Shown here piece after piece: positions 9,619-48,593 of a stretch of DNA of 64,000 nucleotides (positions are counted from its first letter, which is position 1; each line of letters starts with the position of its first letter). The notes beneath the pieces are model-generated. The model had not been told where the DNA came from. It searched no databases and saw only the letters and a program-made list of their open reading frames with translations. The position numbers and the translations under genes were made by a program. This DNA comes from Puniceicoccaceae bacterium (lineage in GTDB: Bacteria > Verrucomicrobiota > Verrucomicrobiia > Opitutales > Coraliomargaritaceae). The stretch lies in contig PBYS01000079.1 in NCBI GenBank assembly GCA_002729725.1, positions 1-64,000 of the forward strand. The letters are read 5' to 3'.

Positions 9619-10500
9619 TTAAAGTGGACGTGCGAGGAAGTTGACGCGACGAACGAAGACTTCACCATTCGCAGCAATGTATTCCTTCCAAGAACTAAAG
9701 CCCGTTTGAGTTAATTTATCGGCCTGAATAACTTGCAGCACTGAATCCGAAACCACAGTCAGAGTGATGTCTGCATAAGCCAGAGGTCTCGCAAAGACAG
9801 TACCGCCAGATGCTGCCCCTACTGTTGCATCGGTGCCACCGAACTTAACATCTCCTGAAACCAACAAAGCAGTACCCGCTGGATCCTCGCTATCGCCCTC
9901 TACATAGAAATCGATTCGAAAATCAACAATGTTAGAAACTAAATAATTGTCTCCATCTGCTTTAGTCGCGGGTTCCAACCATTGAGTATTATCGAACTCT
10001 TCTTGATTCCCTGAGCCCATTAACTCGTTGAATGTCTCCTCAGGATCAATCAAATGACGATACAAGATAAATGTCTGATCACCAGTAGATCCACCATCGA
10101 TAGGGCTTCCATAATCTAACAAATAGGAGACTCCACAAATATCGCCAGCGACTCCCTCAGGCCGATCTAAAGCAGGTGAAAACAACTTAAGCTTTGTAGT
10201 CACAAACCCCGTTCCAGAAAATGGATTATCGACAGCCTGTTTACTCGCTTCCAACCAACGTAGTCCGTTGTTACGAAAAACAGCTGTTTCCAAGTCCTGT
10301 GTCAACAAATCCATCGCGATGCGAGCTTCAGCATTTGCCGATAGCTTACCAGACGAACGATTCCACACTTTTAAGACTTCACTAGTGATCTGAATAACGA
10401 GTCCAACAAGAACAATCATGATGACCGTCGCCACCATAATTTCGATAAGTGTAAAAGCACTGCGACGCTTCTTTCGCGGGGTAGTCAGTAAAGTATTCAT
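9619..10500 (-). CDS. Prepilin-type protein, GspJ-like
   Basis: A 293-residue protein with a type IV prepilin leader: a basic N-terminus (RKKRRSA), then FTLIEIMVATVIMIVLVGLV. The conserved Glu at +5 is present, but the residue before the cleavage site is Ala rather than Gly. Length and position as the last gene of the cluster resemble the minor pseudopilin GspJ. The body is a mixed alpha/beta domain without recognisable motifs. It follows the GspI-like gene by 12 bp, the last of five minus-strand prepilin genes that probably form one operon. Confidence 0.7.
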   Translation of the reverse strand: MNTLLTTPRKKRRSAFTLIEIMVATVIMIVLVGLVIQITSEVLKVWNRSSGKLSANAEARIAMDLLTQDLETAVFRNNGLRWLEASKQAVDNPFSGTGFVTTKLKLFSPALDRPEGVAGDICGVSYLLDYGSPIDGGSTGDQTFILYRHLIDPEETFNELMGSGNQEEFDNTQWLEPATKADGDNYLVSNIVDFRIDFYVEGDSEDPAGTALLVSGDVKFGGTDATVGAASGGTVFARPLAYADITLTVVSDSVLQVIQADKLTQTGFSSWKEYIAANGEVFVRRVNFLARPL

Positions 10501-10512
10501 GATGATAAGATG

Positions 10513-11211
10513 CTATCGCACAACTGCGGTGTTATATTCAAAGATTGGTTCGACGCCAGCAAGCTCTCCGAGATTAGTCGTGCGTGTAAAAGAGGGACCA
10601 GGTGCCTCAGCAAAGATACGAACTTCCATAGCAAAATATCCTTCAAGATAATCGCTCAAGTCTGCTTTCAAAGTATACACTAAAGTATCTTCATCTCGTT
10701 CAGCAGAACGATATTTCTCAGGATCATCAGTTGGCGTAGGAAGAACTGATGACGCCGATAGCACCACGCGATAAATCGGTCCTGCCGCATCAGCGATCTC
10801 CGCATCGGTGATGATGGCATCTGTCCCGATTGGAGTATCTGTGGCTTCATTATTAAATCCCACTTTCAATCCAATTAAACTAGGATCATTCGAGTCTAAG
10901 TAAGCTCTAAAAACAAGGATAGTTGCAAAATTCTCTCCCTTAACAGCATCGTAAATAGCATCGAATTTCGATCCATTGGGCGCAATGTCAGGAGAACTCT
11001 GCAGGAAAGCATTTACGGTATTCACAACCGAAGAGACTTCATCTGTTTTCTCAACTTCATCAACCGACTGAAGTGTGGGACCAAGCAATCCGACCAGAGC
11101 AAGCACTGTGATCAGGAAGATGCCGATCGCAAGAACGACCTCGATCAAACTAAAGCCGCAACTCTCGCGTTTAATTAAAATCGGTGATGGCTCAAATGTT
11201 GTAGATTTCAT
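10513..11211 (-). CDS. Prepilin-type protein, GspI/PilV-like
   Basis: A 232-residue protein with leader RESCG and helix FSLIEVVLAIGIFLITVLALVG, so cleavage after Gly and Glu at +5 as required by the prepilin peptidase. The size and type of helix fit a GspI- or PilV-like minor pseudopilin. The mature domain shows no known catalytic motif. It is fourth in the prepilin operon, 87 bp after the third gene. Minor pseudopilins prime assembly of the pseudopilus in type II secretion or type IV pili. Confidence 0.7.
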   Translation of the reverse strand: MKSTTFEPSPILIKRESCGFSLIEVVLAIGIFLITVLALVGLLGPTLQSVDEVEKTDEVSSVVNTVNAFLQSSPDIAPNGSKFDAIYDAVKGENFATILVFRAYLDSNDPSLIGLKVGFNNEATDTPIGTDAIITDAEIADAAGPIYRVVLSASSVLPTPTDDPEKYRSAERDEDTLVYTLKADLSDYLEGYFAMEVRIFAEAPGPSFTRTTNLGELAGVEPIFEYNTAVVR

Positions 11212-11298
11212 AAATATTATTTTCGTGATAATGATTCTAAGACCGCACTAGAAAGTCATGCATAAATGTTAATACAGTTGGTATGATAAAGCAGACCT

Positions 11299-12015
11299 TT
11301 ATGGCGCAGGCGCTGCAGCTGGCTCTTTAATATCTCCAGGATCATCGACACGAGTGGTCGTGCCCATCCTTCGTAAAATCAAAGCAGACCTAAGCCCGAT
11401 TTTATCTTCTTCAGTAAATACGACTTCATATTTACCACTTGCATCAGGCTTTAGAGTCCCCGCTTGAAGAACGAGCCAATTGTTATCAAAGCCAGAAGCC
11501 ATTGTTCCATTACTATTAAATTCATAATAATAATACTCTTCACCACCTCCGCCCCCGGCTTTATCAGTATTACTACCAGCTCGAAGCCTAGGATAATCCA
11601 AGTTCATAGTGTTTTTATTCCAGAGATTACTCCCGGAGCTGGGGCTACCATCTGGATTAAAATAAATCCCTTCAGGAAGAGACGTACCTTGAGTTGCAGC
11701 CAACCACCCTTCTTTACCATCCTGATCAGTCCCCCAGTAAACGATACCGAAAAAGCGTAGCATTTTATCAATATTTGCCTCCGCGGATGTATTATTCTCA
11801 GAGTATATAATTAGTCGCGTCTTAGCATTTTTGAGAATAGCCTGCCCTCGTGCGCCTTGCGCAATGCCAGCAACAATTCTTTGCGAAGAAGTGAGTTTGG
11901 CACCGTCACCACCATTTCCACCGATAAATATAAAAGAGGAAGCTATCAATATAATACTGATAACAACCAATAATTCAACTAGGGTGAAACCGTGTTTTTT
12001 ATTCGAACAATACAT
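11299..12015 (-). CDS. Prepilin-type protein, GspH-like
   Basis: A 238-residue protein with leader KKHG and helix FTLVELLVVISIILIASSFIFIGG. Gly at the cleavage site and Glu at +5 are present. The middle of the protein contains segments such as GIVYWGTDQDGKEGW and a Gly-rich loop (KAGGGGGEEYYYY). Its position after two major-type pseudopilins fits a GspH role, but similarity in the body is not clear. It follows the second gene by 9 bp. A Pro/Ala-rich tail (EPAAAPAP) ends the protein. Confidence 0.65.
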   Translation of the reverse strand: MYCSNKKHGFTLVELLVVISIILIASSFIFIGGNGGDGAKLTSSQRIVAGIAQGARGQAILKNAKTRLIIYSENNTSAEANIDKMLRFFGIVYWGTDQDGKEGWLAATQGTSLPEGIYFNPDGSPSSGSNLWNKNTMNLDYPRLRAGSNTDKAGGGGGEEYYYYEFNSNGTMASGFDNNWLVLQAGTLKPDASGKYEVVFTEEDKIGLRSALILRRMGTTTRVDDPGDIKEPAAAPAP

Positions 12016-41512: not shown

Positions 41513-44500
41513 CTAGTCGATTCCCATCGCCTCGAGCTCAGTTTCCAACTCGGTAGCCGCATCGCGCAAGGCTTGACGCAGCGCATCGTAGTAGCGCTCA
41601 GTCAAATAGAAGAGGCGTGCCACTTCACCATCCACGAGGTCAACCTTGCTGAGATCGCGGGTGGGCAAAAGCAGGAATCGACCAACAGAGAAGTTCTCCA
41701 GCGTGAGTGTGCGGTCCACGGCGTTAAGTGTGACAGTGTCGCGCAATACGATGGCGCGCTTGAGACGGCGCAAATCTGCAGCATCGTGCAAGACGATGCT
41801 ATGACGCGCACGCCCTTGCTCGTCTGGTTGATTCAAGGCCCAAAAAAGATGCTCATAAGCGGAACGGTCTGGCACCTCAACGATCTCAATACTAGGCACA
41901 GGCGACTCTAGCGCCTGACTGAGATCCTCGGTCTTGCCATAATCACGGTAGCTGATGGTGAGCGCTTTGTCGTCGAAGTAATCCCAGACATCTTCGATGC
42001 TGCGGATTTGCTTGGCCTGCACCTCGCCTGCATGAGCTTGAGCTCGCTCGAGCAGGAGCTTTTCTAAGAAGCTCACCTCAAAACCTTCGTCGGCATCAGG
42101 CTTAGGCTCGAATATCAGCGAGCGCGAAGCGTCCACCCGCTCATCCATCCGAATGCGCTTGATCACTTCATACATCTGACGATAGACGAGGATGTTCTCG
42201 CCGGGCACACGCCCATTCGCAAAACTCGAGAATGGGTACTGCGCACGCAAGGAGTAGTCCTGATCGACGGCTAATTCTGCCTTGGCTTGCAATTCGTTAA
42301 GATGCTCATTCTCAATCAGGAAGTTAAGCTCAAAGACATCCTCGTCGCGGATACGGTAGGCGTCGCGGAAGAGCTCATTGCCAAAAGAGTCGAAGGTGTC
42401 CTCGCCCTTGGGCAAGAAGCGGCCGACAATCTTATCCAGGGCTTCAGTCTGATTATTGACCTCTTCCGGCAACACGAAGGGCGTGATCACGATGATCACC
42501 TCGCGCTTAAGCTGATCGACTTCTTCGCTGCCAAAGGCGCGCCCCAAATATGGGATCGAACCTAGCAACGGCACCGTTTTTTTAATGCGTAAATCGTCCT
42601 TTGCGATCAGACCACCAATAATAAAGGGCGTATTATTGGCAATGCGGGCGTAAGTTTTGACTTCGCGAATGGAAATGGTCGGCGCGCGCGCCACCACTGT
42701 ATCGGTATTGGCATTGCGAACGATTACATCCTCATTGGGCACTTCGGCGGAGACGGTCGCATTGACCTGCATACTGACCTCCTGCCCTTCATCGTTGATA
42801 CGCGGGCGTACTGCGAGCTGAATGCCCACCGTTTCGCTGCGAAAGCTGACTGTGGAGACATTATTATTACCCTGAAACTTTGTTTCTGCGATCGGGATTT
42901 TACGCGCAACATTAATGTAGGCCATGCGATTATCCAAAGTCAGCACACTGGGGCGCGAAAGCACCTCGGCCTCCCCATCAGCCATGAGTGCGCGGATACC
43001 GACATCGAATTCTCCAAAGATCTTGGGCGTGCCCATCACTAACTGATCATTAATACTATCGAGGTCCGGAACGACATCGCCCAATTGTAACGCGGAAAAA
43101 TTCGAGCTGGGGCCAGCCAGCGTCCACTCCACTCCGAGCCGATCCAAGCCAGACTCGGAAATCTCCAGTACCATGGCTTCGATCATGATTTGCCGGGAAG
43201 GAATATCGATCTCCTCACGAATCATGCGCACCACACGACTCAACTGCGATGGCTGAGAGCGATCGTAGAAAATAAGGAGTTCATTCAGCGGGTCGGCATC
43301 GGTGAGCGGAAAACTCTTATCGGTGTTAGGAATCGTATTGTGCTGCACAGTCGATGGAATCGCCACCACCACAGGCAATTGAGCCTTTTTAATCGCATCG
43401 CCAGTGATACCAGTATTGATCCCGTAGATTTTAAGCACATCCAAACAGCGCTTGGGATCTGTATAGCTAAGACGCATGCGTTGGGTCTCGATCTCATCCA
43501 GGACAGAGCCAGTTTGCGCCGCCACTGGCGTGGGCATGGTAAACAAGGCTCCAAGCGTGAGCCCGAGCAAAAGCAACCAAGTCGAGAGCGCCCCCGCCGC
43601 GAAGGATTGTGCGGCCGATGCGATACGATTGCGCTGCGAGACAAGGCGCCCTTGGTTGAGTTCAATTTCCATATCGGCGTGTTTCAAAAGTTTCGGGTTG
43701 TGGGTAATCATGAGAGTCGTGCGCCCGCGCATGAGCTTTAAAATGGTAGGAATGACCGCATCCTCAAGCTCTGTGTCGAGTGAGGCAGTGGCTTCGTCTA
43801 GAATTAAAATTTTCGGGTCTTTGATCATCGCGCGCGTGATCGTGATCAACTGTTTCTGCCCGCGCGAAAGCGCCAATCCTCCATCGCCCACAATCGTGTG
43901 GTAGCCATTCGGAAGCCGCTGTATAAACTCGTCCGCACCCGTTAAGGCACAGATGCGGCGTATCTCTTTCTCGCTAGCCCGGGCTTTGGCATAGCGCAAA
44001 TTTTCCTGAATCGAGGCATTAAACAGGAAACACTCCTGAAAGACGACACCGATATTTCGGCGAAGATCGCGAGTCGAAATTTCACGCGTGTCGACCCCAT
44101 CGATGACAATGCTACCAGCGGTCGGTCGCAGCAGCATCGGCACTAGGCTGACCAAGGTTGACTTACCAGCTACGGAGTGTCCAGTGATCGCGCAGACCTG
44201 CCCCGCTTTCACCGCAAAAGATACGTCCTGCAAAGTATCACTCAGACCGTCGAAGGAAAACTTAAGCTGATCAAAACGTAGGTCGCCACGCATTTCGGGC
44301 ATCGCAACGCCTGCCCCTTCAGTGGCAGCCTCATCGACATCAAGTAACTCATAGACCCGGTCCACACTCGCCCCCACCTTCGAGAGCTTAGCACCACTAC
44401 TCATCAGGTCGATCACGGTAGGATAGAGCAATCGAATGTACCAGAAGAAGGCGATAAAGTCGCCCGCACCCATGGCATGCTCCACCGGACGACCAATCAC

Positions 44501-45322
44501 TTGATAGGCGCCGAGCCCAATCAAGGCCAACATGCCAAAGCCGACCAGGAGGTCCGCACAAACTTTTTGTAAGACTACGTAACGATAACTACTGAGATGG
44601 CTGGCCCGCGAGTCCTCCATCGCTTCGTTAAAGGCGCGATTGCCTCGCTCCTCGCCTGTAAAGCCCTTTACCACTTCAACGCCTAAGAGGGTTTCGATAA
44701 TGCTCCCCGTGGCAAAATCGATGCGCTCCTGCGACTCGCGACTACTACGCTTGATGCGGCGCCCAAAAAATGTAAATACGTAGAGATGCACAGGCAAAAT
44801 AAAAGTCGAGGCCAATGCCAACTGCCAGTTGATCGTATACGTGATCACTAAAATCCCTAAGAAGAGCAAGGCTGCCTGCAAAGTCTTAGGTAGCACATCG
44901 GCAATGAATTGCTGAATTTGCATACTATCGTTCATCACTTTACTCGTAATTTGCCCCGGGCTCTGCGAACGGGTATAACTCAGTTGCAACTGCTGAATAC
45001 GCTCGAATAAACGCTTGCGCAGCGAAAAGCAGACGTTTTCACCCACCTGCACTGCTGTGAATTTGCTCTGATAAAAAAATAGATTACGCAGGAGAAAGCA
45101 GACAAGCAGTCCTCCGAGAATCCACCACAGCAACAACCAGTCACGCTCGGGGAAGACCTCATTAAACACCATGCCGATCAGCATCGGCGTAGCCAAGTTC
45201 ACCGCAGTGAGTAAAAACATTCCCGCCAAAGCGAGCGCAACCGGCTTCCAATGCGGCCACAGTAATCCCAGTAATCGTTTATTGGGCGAAGGATTTTCTA
45301 CGGCCGAAGCCATGATATGCAA
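41513..45322 (-). CDS. ABC exporter fused to a secretin-type outer membrane protein
   Basis: One frame of 1269 residues. Residues 1-560 form an ABC exporter half: six TM helices (about 25-310), then a nucleotide-binding domain with Walker A GHSVAGKST (381-389, Val for the usual Gly), Q-loop VVFQE, signature LSRGQ (485-489, Arg for Gly), Walker B ILILDE (505-510) and H-loop His541. At 579-602 a hydrophobic stretch ending VAA is an internal signal peptide. Then an N-type domain (about 610-690), a secretin domain (about 700-952, with VPLLGSIPYLGRAFG at 917-931), and an unfamiliar C-terminal extension (about 955-1269). Met551 could be an internal start for the secretin. No stop codon separates the halves. 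Confidence 0.75.
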   Translation of the reverse strand: MHIMASAVENPSPNKRLLGLLWPHWKPVALALAGMFLLTAVNLATPMLIGMVFNEVFPERDWLLLWWILGGLLVCFLLRNLFFYQSKFTAVQVGENVCFSLRKRLFERIQQLQLSYTRSQSPGQITSKVMNDSMQIQQFIADVLPKTLQAALLFLGILVITYTINWQLALASTFILPVHLYVFTFFGRRIKRSSRESQERIDFATGSIIETLLGVEVVKGFTGEERGNRAFNEAMEDSRASHLSSYRYVVLQKVCADLLVGFGMLALIGLGAYQVIGRPVEHAMGAGDFIAFFWYIRLLYPTVIDLMSSGAKLSKVGASVDRVYELLDVDEAATEGAGVAMPEMRGDLRFDQLKFSFDGLSDTLQDVSFAVKAGQVCAITGHSVAGKSTLVSLVPMLLRPTAGSIVIDGVDTREISTRDLRRNIGVVFQECFLFNASIQENLRYAKARASEKEIRRICALTGADEFIQRLPNGYHTIVGDGGLALSRGQKQLITITRAMIKDPKILILDEATASLDTELEDAVIPTILKLMRGRTTLMITHNPKLLKHADMEIELNQGRLVSQRNRIASAAQSFAAGALSTWLLLLGLTLGALFTMPTPVAAQTGSVLDEIETQRMRLSYTDPKRCLDVLKIYGINTGITGDAIKKAQLPVVVAIPSTVQHNTIPNTDKSFPLTDADPLNELLIFYDRSQPSQLSRVVRMIREEIDIPSRQIMIEAMVLEISESGLDRLGVEWTLAGPSSNFSALQLGDVVPDLDSINDQLVMGTPKIFGEFDVGIRALMADGEAEVLSRPSVLTLDNRMAYINVARKIPIAETKFQGNNNVSTVSFRSETVGIQLAVRPRINDEGQEVSMQVNATVSAEVPNEDVIVRNANTDTVVARAPTISIREVKTYARIANNTPFIIGGLIAKDDLRIKKTVPLLGSIPYLGRAFGSEEVDQLKREVIIVITPFVLPEEVNNQTEALDKIVGRFLPKGEDTFDSFGNELFRDAYRIRDEDVFELNFLIENEHLNELQAKAELAVDQDYSLRAQYPFSSFANGRVPGENILVYRQMYEVIKRIRMDERVDASRSLIFEPKPDADEGFEVSFLEKLLLERAQAHAGEVQAKQIRSIEDVWDYFDDKALTISYRDYGKTEDLSQALESPVPSIEIVEVPDRSAYEHLFWALNQPDEQGRARHSIVLHDAADLRRLKRAIVLRDTVTLNAVDRTLTLENFSVGRFLLLPTRDLSKVDLVDGEVARLFYLTERYYDALRQALRDAATELETELEAMGID

Positions 45323-45551: not shown

Positions 45552-48500
45552 CTACAGCTCCGGTGCTAATACCACGCGAAACCCGAGCGCATCGCTCTTC
45601 ACATTCGGGTTAATTTCTTCACGCACAGCTGAGCGCACACGAGCGGCGGAATCCTCCCAACCGCCACCACGCACGACGATACGCTCGCCTTCACTTCGCG
45701 GACGTGGATCTACCACGGAGTCACCGGATAACCTGCCATTGTAGCGATCAAGCGTCCACTCTCGCACATTACCATGCACATCATAAAGCCCATATTCATT
45801 TGCCTGATAGCGCCCCACGATTGAGGTGCCGGTACCATCGGGCGCACGCAAGCCGTCTTTACGGTCACGCGGGTAAACCCCTCGAAAGTGGCCCTTCGTG
45901 GCATCTGCCACGCGGCCAAAGTGAAAAGGTGTCCGACTACCTCCACGCGCGGCATACTCCCACTCTGCCTCGCTAGGCAAACGATAGACATAGCCCTCAG
46001 GTAGACGTTGCGCTTCCCGCTCAAAATTTGTTAACAACTCACAGAAAACCTTCGCTTCCTGCCAACTCACACTCTCAACCGGCCGAGCGCCACTCTTAAA
46101 CTTAGAAGGATTGTGCCCAGTGATTTCGTAATACTGCGCCTGCGTGACTTCGTAGATACCAGCCCAAAAACCATGCGTGAAGACAACCTGAGTTTGAGGC
46201 CCCTCGTTCGGCAAACGTGCGTGTTCTGGTAAAGGACTCCCCATCGTGAACTCCCCTGCGGGCACCCACCCGAATGAAATACTAAAATAAGGCAGGGTCC
46301 AGCTCTGGCCTTCGGTCGGCCCGGGAATGGAGACAGGTTTGACCTGCCACACATAAGTCTCATTCGGAGATAATTTGAACACTCGCGACATAGTTAAATG
46401 ATTCCTGACACGTAGCTCAAACTCCACCTCCTTATTGGCCGGAATCTGAATCGAATTACCGATTAACTGAGTCACAACACCATCCACCCGCACAGCGGCT
46501 TCAAGATTACCAAGAATTTCAAGCTGCACAATACTTGGACGCGGTTCCAACACAAAGTCCAAAATATATTCCCCACGGTCATCGACCTGCAATGTCTTCT
46601 CCTTAGAGATGTAGAGCGGATGCTCCAGTCGAATACGGTGCTCGCCCACTGGCACAAAAGCAAGATCGCGCTCTCCCCATGAATAGGCCTCATCGTCGAT
46701 AACAACTTTGAGTGCATGATATAGATCCTCCGGCTCAGGCACGTTTTGGCCCAGCACGCTGACTCTAAAACGTAAGGCCCCAGAGAGCGGCACTAGATCA
46801 CCAAAATCAATCATTATATCCTGACCTGGCTCCACAACAACGCGACGACCAACCGGACGATATCCGGGCAGACGAGCAATCACCAAATATTGATCACTAG
46901 GGATCACATCCTCTAAGGACAAGGGGGTCTTACCCAGTTCGATATCGTTAATAACAATCGACGCCCCAGCAGGCTGACTGCGAACATCAACCTTAGCGGG
47001 CAATGGTAATAGTGGCGCATCAATCTCCGCCACAGTGCCAAACTCAATCGCCTGATTCTCTAATACACTGGGCTGATACCCTGCTTTCTTCACGAGCACT
47101 TGATAAGTTCCAGCAAAGATCCCTTTCTTGAGAGAAAAAGTGCCCGAATCATCCGCCACGCCGAGTTCAATCTCAAGACCACGCAGATCCACAACAGAGA
47201 TCGAAGCACCAGGCTCAGTATGAATCGTCATATCCGTCCACGCAGGCTTCAAGTTCACTTGCACACGCTCAGCGATACTAGCGCCAGAAACAATGTTCAC
47301 TCGCAGTGTTTCCTCAATGTGGTGCGGTGCAGAAATACGCAATTTGTAGTAGCCGGGCTGCACATTTAGACGCAAGGCACCTTCATTGGCGAAAAAACGC
47401 TGTTTAAAACCGACAAATTCAACCCTAGCAACAGGAGGCTCTACCTTCAGCTCCAAGGATGGACTTTGCCCGGCCTCCGCAACTTGAGCCACCGAACGGC
47501 TATAATCAGCCTCCTCAGTATAACTCACACTCAAAAATGACGCACAGACCGCAGTCAAAGTCAGCCCAATCAATCCGATAATAAAAAGCCGGTAAATGCG
47601 GGTTGCCAACTCACCCCGCTCGACAATTTTCTTCGGCACCGGAATCCGGTCGATTTGCCGTTGCACAAAGCCAGCCCCTTCCGACTGCGGCTCCACCTCG
47701 GTGCTCTTGAGCCCCAGCAACGCAACTTTACAGGATTGATAACGCTTATCCTGAGTGCGCTCAAGCGACTTATCAAAAAACTCGTTCCAATTGGGCGAAA
47801 GATCATCGACCAGCTTAGTCGGTGGCTCGTATTTCGACAGAACGGCCTTACGCCCGGTCAACAACCAATAACCAACAAAGCCAACCCCGTAGACATCGAC
47901 ACGAGCATCCTCCGCCACGCCCGAACGGTACTCGGGACTCATCACATCAAATGAATTCAGACGCCCAAGCGTTTTACTCGAGACGAGCGGCGAGACCGAT
48001 GCGGAGACAATAGATTCAAACAGATCTACACCTAGGGCGGCCTTCACTCCGAGACCTATAATCCGGATACTACCATCTTCTTGAACATAAATTAAATCCG
48101 AATCCAGATCGCGATGATCGACGCCTTGCGAATGTGCATAGCCTAAAACCCCGAGCAATTGCGCAATCATCACGACCGATGCTTTGACCCCGATGCCCTC
48201 TTTACCAGGCTCTCCATGAGTTTCAAAATATTGGCTCAGTGTTTGCCCTTTAACAGGATCCAGAAAAAGGCAAATACGCCCGTCGATCTTATTACAGTCA
48301 CGTATCTTCGGAATCGCCTCATGGTCGAAGGTGGAAACCGTCTTCTTCAACAGTTCTAGACGCTTAAAAAAGCGATCATTACCTTCAGTGCGATAGTGAA
48401 AAATGCCCACTGTCACATCGTGCAAGTCACGAATGTGCTGCATATGATAGTAATGCGCCAGCAAGCCCGCACACATGCACTTCACCACCCGATAATTACC

Positions 48501-48593
48501 GAAACTCTCGCCCGTTTTAAGCACGCGATTTTTTAACTGCTCCTTCTTTTGAGCAGCAGCGATGCTATCAGGGGGGCTCTCTTCGTTCTCCAT
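45552..48593 (-). CDS. Pseudokinase-PEGA-SUMF1 membrane protein
   Basis: A 1013-residue protein. Residues about 30-300 have a Ser/Thr kinase fold with HRD (160-162) but no Asn after it (HRDLDSDLI), GLG (180-182) in place of DFG, and no clear VAIK Lys or Gly-rich loop, so it should be catalytically dead. A TM helix (about 334-356) leads to several PEGA-like beta domains (about 375-760; for example RSQPAGASIVINDIELGKTP). The C-terminal formylglycine-generating/SUMF1-like domain (774-1013) has GEFTMGSPLPEH, YEVTQAQYYEITG, YRLPSEAEWEYAAR, NVREWTLD, VRGGGW and LGFRVVL. The periplasmic SUMF1 domain may be a ligand-binding module. It precedes the ABC-secretin gene on the same strand by 229 bp. Confidence 0.8.
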   Translation of the reverse strand: MENEESPPDSIAAAQKKEQLKNRVLKTGESFGNYRVVKCMCAGLLAHYYHMQHIRDLHDVTVGIFHYRTEGNDRFFKRLELLKKTVSTFDHEAIPKIRDCNKIDGRICLFLDPVKGQTLSQYFETHGEPGKEGIGVKASVVMIAQLLGVLGYAHSQGVDHRDLDSDLIYVQEDGSIRIIGLGVKAALGVDLFESIVSASVSPLVSSKTLGRLNSFDVMSPEYRSGVAEDARVDVYGVGFVGYWLLTGRKAVLSKYEPPTKLVDDLSPNWNEFFDKSLERTQDKRYQSCKVALLGLKSTEVEPQSEGAGFVQRQIDRIPVPKKIVERGELATRIYRLFIIGLIGLTLTAVCASFLSVSYTEEADYSRSVAQVAEAGQSPSLELKVEPPVARVEFVGFKQRFFANEGALRLNVQPGYYKLRISAPHHIEETLRVNIVSGASIAERVQVNLKPAWTDMTIHTEPGASISVVDLRGLEIELGVADDSGTFSLKKGIFAGTYQVLVKKAGYQPSVLENQAIEFGTVAEIDAPLLPLPAKVDVRSQPAGASIVINDIELGKTPLSLEDVIPSDQYLVIARLPGYRPVGRRVVVEPGQDIMIDFGDLVPLSGALRFRVSVLGQNVPEPEDLYHALKVVIDDEAYSWGERDLAFVPVGEHRIRLEHPLYISKEKTLQVDDRGEYILDFVLEPRPSIVQLEILGNLEAAVRVDGVVTQLIGNSIQIPANKEVEFELRVRNHLTMSRVFKLSPNETYVWQVKPVSIPGPTEGQSWTLPYFSISFGWVPAGEFTMGSPLPEHARLPNEGPQTQVVFTHGFWAGIYEVTQAQYYEITGHNPSKFKSGARPVESVSWQEAKVFCELLTNFEREAQRLPEGYVYRLPSEAEWEYAARGGSRTPFHFGRVADATKGHFRGVYPRDRKDGLRAPDGTGTSIVGRYQANEYGLYDVHGNVREWTLDRYNGRLSGDSVVDPRPRSEGERIVVRGGGWEDSAARVRSAVREEINPNVKSDALGFRVVLAPEL

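Follow-up and report, generated by a model that had tools for sequence, protein, structure and literature searches.

An ABC exporter and a secretin joined in one reading frame by an internal signal-like segment in Verrucomicrobiota and Phycisphaerae

Filamentous phage, type IV pili, and the type II and type III secretion systems are known to use secretins as outlets; ABC exporters are known to use TolC-type channels. In the window analyzed here, a stretch of 64,000 nucleotides from a Puniceicoccaceae bacterium (contig PBYS01000079.1), an ABC exporter and a secretin are encoded in one frame, although the two belong to different membranes. The locus raises the question of whether the fusion is genuine and, if so, how one reading frame could supply both membranes.

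Architecture of the fused gene

The frame is open from an ATG at 45313 down to the stop at 41513 on the minus strand, and a TTG at 45322 lies three codons upstream of the ATG. Residues are numbered here from the ATG (1266 aa); the sequence-only reading counted from the TTG (+3), such that the features it named are present but its residue 602 and Met551 become 599 and Met548. The features are as follows.

41513..45313 (−): fused ABC exporter–secretin gene, ATG start, 1266 codons and stop
44426..45232 (−): ABC exporter transmembrane domain, residues 28–296, Pfam PF00664 (ABC_membrane)
43784..44233 (−): ABC ATPase domain, residues 361–510, Pfam PF00005 (ABC_tran)
44156..44182 (−): Walker A GHSVAGKST, residues 378–386, with a fourth-position G-to-V change private to the window genome
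43856..43870 (−): signature LSRGQ, residues 482–486, SRG[QE] being typical of the whole family
43670..43672 (−): Met548 codon (Met551 in the earlier numbering), a restart candidate without a Shine-Dalgarno sequence and not conserved
43580..43648 (−): linker into the signal, approximately residues 556–578
43517..43579 (−): hydrophobic and c-region of the internal signal, residues 579–599, with a predicted signal peptidase I (SPase I) cut after VAA (599|600)
43160..43492 (−): short secretin N-domain region, approximately residues 608–718; model residues 5–106 match secretin N-domains (3gr5, XcpQ)
42470..42991 (−): secretin barrel domain, residues 775–948, Pfam PF00263 and Foldseek
41516..42424 (−): family-specific C-terminal domain, residues 964–1266, whose presence tracks the secretin family

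Thus, the claim that an exporter and a secretin share one frame with an internal signal is confirmed by the frame itself and by its Pfam domains (E-values of 1.2e-36 for the ABC_membrane family, 1.6e-29 for ABC_tran, and 5.1e-37 for Secretin).

The ABC half has an MsbA-like domain order, and its best NCBIfam match is TIGR02203 (MsbA), although the score of 340.6 bits does not meet the cut-off of 602. The Q-loop, Walker B, and H-loop are standard. The sequence-only reading also described altered Walker A and signature residues; both motifs are present, and only the first of these alterations stands. The signature is normal for the family, with [LF]SRG[QE] in 25 of the 26 ABC parts compared and LSHGQ in the remaining one, and LSRGQ is rejected as a sign of damage because SRG[QE] is family-wide. 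The change of G to V at position 4 of Walker A is found in the window only among the 26 parts; it still fits the loose pattern [AG]xxxxGK[ST] and could weaken the ATPase of this particular protein.

For the secretin half, the structure model has a mean pLDDT of 59, and all 36 Foldseek matches with E < 0.001 are secretins. The model contains one secretin N-domain, which aligns with those of EscC and XcpQ. Against NCBIfam TIGR02517 (GspD), the secretin scores 156.7 bits and does not meet the cut-off of 351.35. The C-terminal domain (approximately 300 residues) has no sequence relative in the PDB, and its structure model is weak (mean pLDDT 59). Within Phycisphaerae, the 21 genomes (of 298) that harbor the secretin family are precisely those in which it is present. 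Restricted in that class to genomes with this family and lacking a PDB sequence relative, the domain is taken to mark the family. In G535, a lone 85-residue fragment of it (G535:C20:319920-320174) lies at a distance of about 2 kb from that genome's fused gene. Phycisphaerae members have an extra N-terminal domain (e.g., the N-terminal part of L036:5264-7975), modeled with a pLDDT of about 85; it is weakly BamC-like (Foldseek E of about 0.0016–0.06; whole-model pLDDT 47), which is a lead only. Genomes with fused loci hold other secretin genes elsewhere.

Recurrence, inheritance, and partners

A protein search with one genome per species finds relatives in Verrucomicrobia, Planctomycetes, and Kiritimatiellota records. 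The first protein search gave four one-frame fusions (L031, L032, L033, and L034) and four planctomycete records with two adjacent genes. A secretin profile finds matches in 7 of 388 genomes from the phylum of the window, in 21 of 298 genomes of Phycisphaerae (the class of L033), and in 11 of 392 genomes sampled across the phylum of L033. The distribution of the fused gene is patchy, since none of 14 other genomes of the window's own genus has a comparable match.

When loci are read individually, the fusion is found in 17 genomes of Verrucomicrobiota and the class Phycisphaerae; this is a minimum count for the joined arrangement, which spans two related phyla. Three of the fused frames lie on contigs of 3.9, 7.4, and 4.3 Mb (G134, G582, and G682, respectively). 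L031 also has the fusion, although a frameshift beside undetermined bases disrupts the secretin end. Nine genomes have adjacent separate genes, ABC then secretin. In G529 the order is reversed, with the secretin gene (L089:6736-9627) preceding the ABC gene (9768-11426), opposite to all other linked members. Secretin homologues without any strong ABC partner in the genome are found in G511, G632, G704, and G625.

The sequence-only reading proposed a search for the fusion in relatives and named two findings that would overturn it, a stop codon lost through sequencing error and a point deletion confined to this genome. With the search carried out, neither holds, because the fusion is found in 17 genomes, including on multi-megabase contigs. 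An error of sequencing or assembly that deleted a stop codon between the two genes is without supporting evidence and would have to be reconciled with the same fusion in 17 independent assemblies, on contigs of up to 7.4 Mb. It retains essentially no credibility; sequencing error is ruled out as the source, and the fusion is not considered an artifact. Other one-frame fusions are encountered near loci of the family, namely COX1–FixO (CcoN–CcoO) at L104:2939-5269 and Mur ligase–D-Ala ligase at L107:9377-12721.

In the secretin tree (38 rows), the window groups with L094, L093, and L031, all of them fused, with a support of 100/99. The fused state is widespread and requires seven changes on the tree, at least five of which are forced by starred branches. 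L089 was labeled as partnerless in this tree, its reversed ABC gene having been found only afterwards. The fusion may be old and have been split or replaced several times, or it may have arisen repeatedly; the tree does not decide. Distances between ABC parts and between secretins correlate with r = 0.94 over 24 genomes, which shows joint inheritance yet partly reflects the species tree.

No neighbor is conserved at the fused loci, and those sampled by Pfam are housekeeping or unrelated genes. There are likewise no conserved gsp genes alongside and, within the locus neighborhoods, no conserved adaptor gene. On the basis of the missing conserved neighbor, the ABC–secretin pair looks self-sufficient. 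Upstream of the fused gene, the window encodes a 1013-aa protein with a weak protein-kinase domain as well as PEGA and FGE-sulfatase domains (45552-48593, minus strand). This gene was considered as a conserved third component and rejected, having no counterpart at other loci.

The inner-membrane partner itself can differ. In five genomes, from Opitutia, Kiritimatiellota, and the order to which the window belongs (L098, L099, L107, L108, and L109), the secretin of this family has no ABC gene beside it, and the gene directly upstream of the secretin encodes an MscS channel with a cyclic-nucleotide-binding domain (MscS-cNMP). The two genes overlap by 4 nt in L098 and L108, as in the following pair.

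L108:5943-7520 with L108:7517-9592: MscS-cNMP gene and secretin gene

L108 and L109 harbor a further, downstream cNMP-binding gene. Because this secretin is found linked to either an ABC exporter gene or a channel gene, it is inferred that the job of the secretin may be to extend an inner-membrane conduit across the outer membrane. Through this exchange of partners, what the inner-membrane half does becomes open to direct test.

The junction and the fate of the chain

All 17 fused junctions have a signal-like hydrophobic segment. In the window, it starts at residue 579 and ends PTPVAA|QTG, with VAAQTG at residues 597–602. A strict SPase I site, defined as [AVISTLFY]xA followed by Q, D, or E, is present at 10 of 17 fused junctions as compared to 1 of 109 control transmembrane segments taken from ABC parts. 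A lipoprotein-type cysteine is present at 5 of 17 junctions and in 2 of the 109 controls. In the sister clade, a cysteine follows the hydrophobic segment in all five fused genes; the lipobox is good in L083 (LGAC) and L088 (LGGC) but looser in L081, L084, and L087. The predicted mature N-terminus of the window secretin lacks a lipobox cysteine and has VAA|Q instead. In the separate-secretin homologues of the sister clade (L082, L085, and L089), the cysteine ends an ordinary N-terminal signal. The secretin half thus retains a signal for its own export, of either type (I or II), in fused and split members alike. The cleavage sites at the L031 and L093 junctions are unclear. At the L094 junction, a tandem duplication after the hydrophobic segment, AANADSPETEAAA, doubles an ANA|D cleavage-like site.

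The linkers of three near-relative pairs share 24–53% amino-acid identity, and their indels are of 18, 9, 3, and 3 nt or absent. All indels are multiples of three, and the frame is kept. The sequence-only reading left two alternatives, a polyprotein or a restart of translation at what is now Met548. The former is better supported on the basis of the AxA and lipoprotein-type sites, the frame-keeping linkers, and the lack of a conserved internal start. The specific restart at Met548 is rejected, as no Shine-Dalgarno sequence precedes this codon and the codon is not conserved.

It is considered probable, though well short of certain, that the product is a polyprotein from which signal peptidase releases two partners in export, an exporter of the inner membrane and a secretin of the outer one. 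What is observed is that the fusion exists and recurs, that it has these domains, that cleavage-type signals are conserved, and that the halves are inherited together; the cut, the pairing, and the export role are inferred. The ABC half would reside in the inner membrane, its ATPase on the cytoplasmic side, and the hydrophobic segment that follows would act as an internal signal sequence sending the secretin half across the inner membrane. A cut by SPase I after VAA599 is predicted to free the secretin; in the sister clade, the lipobox cysteine would imply lipidation and signal peptidase II (SPase II) instead. The freed secretin could then assemble in the outer membrane, with the ABC dimer exporting a substrate, as yet unidentified, from the cytoplasm and the secretin ring offering passage through the outer membrane.

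A difficulty for this polyprotein scheme is that an ABC dimer and a ring of 12–15 secretin subunits are hard to reconcile with a 1:1 fused product. An internal start within the ABC frame, yielding a stand-alone secretin precursor beside or instead of the fusion, would relieve the stoichiometry problem and could do so in some species. The evidence for such starts is divided. An ATG with a Shine-Dalgarno-like stretch is found no more than 40 codons before the signal at 6 of 17 junctions as compared to 16% of control windows, but the excess vanishes once any start (ATG, GTG, or TTG) is counted (7 of 17 versus 39%). The split relatives L103–L106 have a clear start 15–18 codons before the signal with a duplex energy of about −6; no start position is conserved among the 17 fused junctions, and L031, L093, and L081 have no plausible internal start at all. 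The lack of a Shine-Dalgarno sequence at Met548 counts against a restart in the window, although it is not decisive, because the window's own ABC start lacks one as well. The small ATG-only excess may thus leave room for restarts in some species, yet as an account of the family an internal start is judged unlikely.

Two further explanations concern the intact chain and the function of its ABC half. The chain could stay whole, with the hydrophobic segment anchored in the inner membrane and holding the N-domains of the secretin close to the exporter there. A single unbroken frame and a segment long enough to span the membrane are compatible with such an anchor, but strict AxA sites and lipobox-type cysteines occur at the junctions far above the transmembrane controls, and in split homologues the corresponding position holds an ordinary N-terminal signal. 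Moreover, only about 10 residues separate the signal from the N-domain in the window, which is inferred to be a short tether for an outer-membrane secretin. The anchor is therefore very improbable. Slightly more credence, albeit still little, is given to an ABC half that regulates or energizes the assembly or gating of the secretin and is not a substrate pump. Such a role would accommodate the Walker A change of the window, the deviations in L078 (H-loop) and L088 (Walker B region), and the replacement of the ABC gene by an MscS-cNMP gene beside the secretin in five genomes. It is opposed by the Walker A, Walker B, Q-loop, and H-loop motifs, which are intact in most members.

Relation to known export systems

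No description of an ABC–secretin fusion or pairing was found in the literature, in a search limited mostly to open-access papers. The ABC–secretin polyprotein apparently represents a real, undescribed way of making a two-membrane export pair, although both halves belong to known families. As a conserved unit, it would add another kind of pairing for both secretins and ABC exporters. The full picture is a two-component trans-envelope exporter in which a secretin replaces TolC as the ABC partner, the polyprotein is split by SPase I (with one clade relying on lipidation and SPase II instead), and an MscS-cNMP channel is swapped in elsewhere; it is possible but can be put forward only tentatively.

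One parallel is afforded by type I secretion and ABC tripartite efflux (ABC, adaptor, and TolC), which likewise combine an ABC exporter with an outer-membrane conduit. In the window, however, the outer-membrane half is a secretin and not TolC, both halves come from one polyprotein gene, and no adaptor gene is conserved nearby. The exporter half shares its domain order with MsbA-type exporters but falls below their cut-off, has LSRG[QE], and is fused to a secretin. The secretin half resembles GspD of type II secretion and PilQ of the type IV pilus in having a secretin barrel and one N-domain; it differs from them in its family-specific C-terminal domain, its linked ABC exporter, its score below the GspD cut-off, and the lack of gsp genes alongside.

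The sister clade recalls liposecretins such as HxcQ (Viarre 2009, cited in PMC3542185) in having a lipobox-type cysteine at the predicted mature secretin N-terminus. Its lipobox sits in the middle of a polyprotein, in contrast to HxcQ, and the site in the window is of the SPase I type.

With respect to gene design, there are precedents among bacterial membrane polyproteins. FbcH of Bradyrhizobium is a one-gene membrane polyprotein with an internal signal sequence that is parted after translation. The fused pufLM of Roseiflexus is also a bacterial membrane polyprotein parted after translation (PMC5908803). The products of FbcH and pufLM share one membrane complex, whereas the two halves encoded in the window belong to two different membranes. 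If true, it would be unusual for a gene to encode a polyprotein with an internal signal, of type I or type II, that directs the halves to two membranes.
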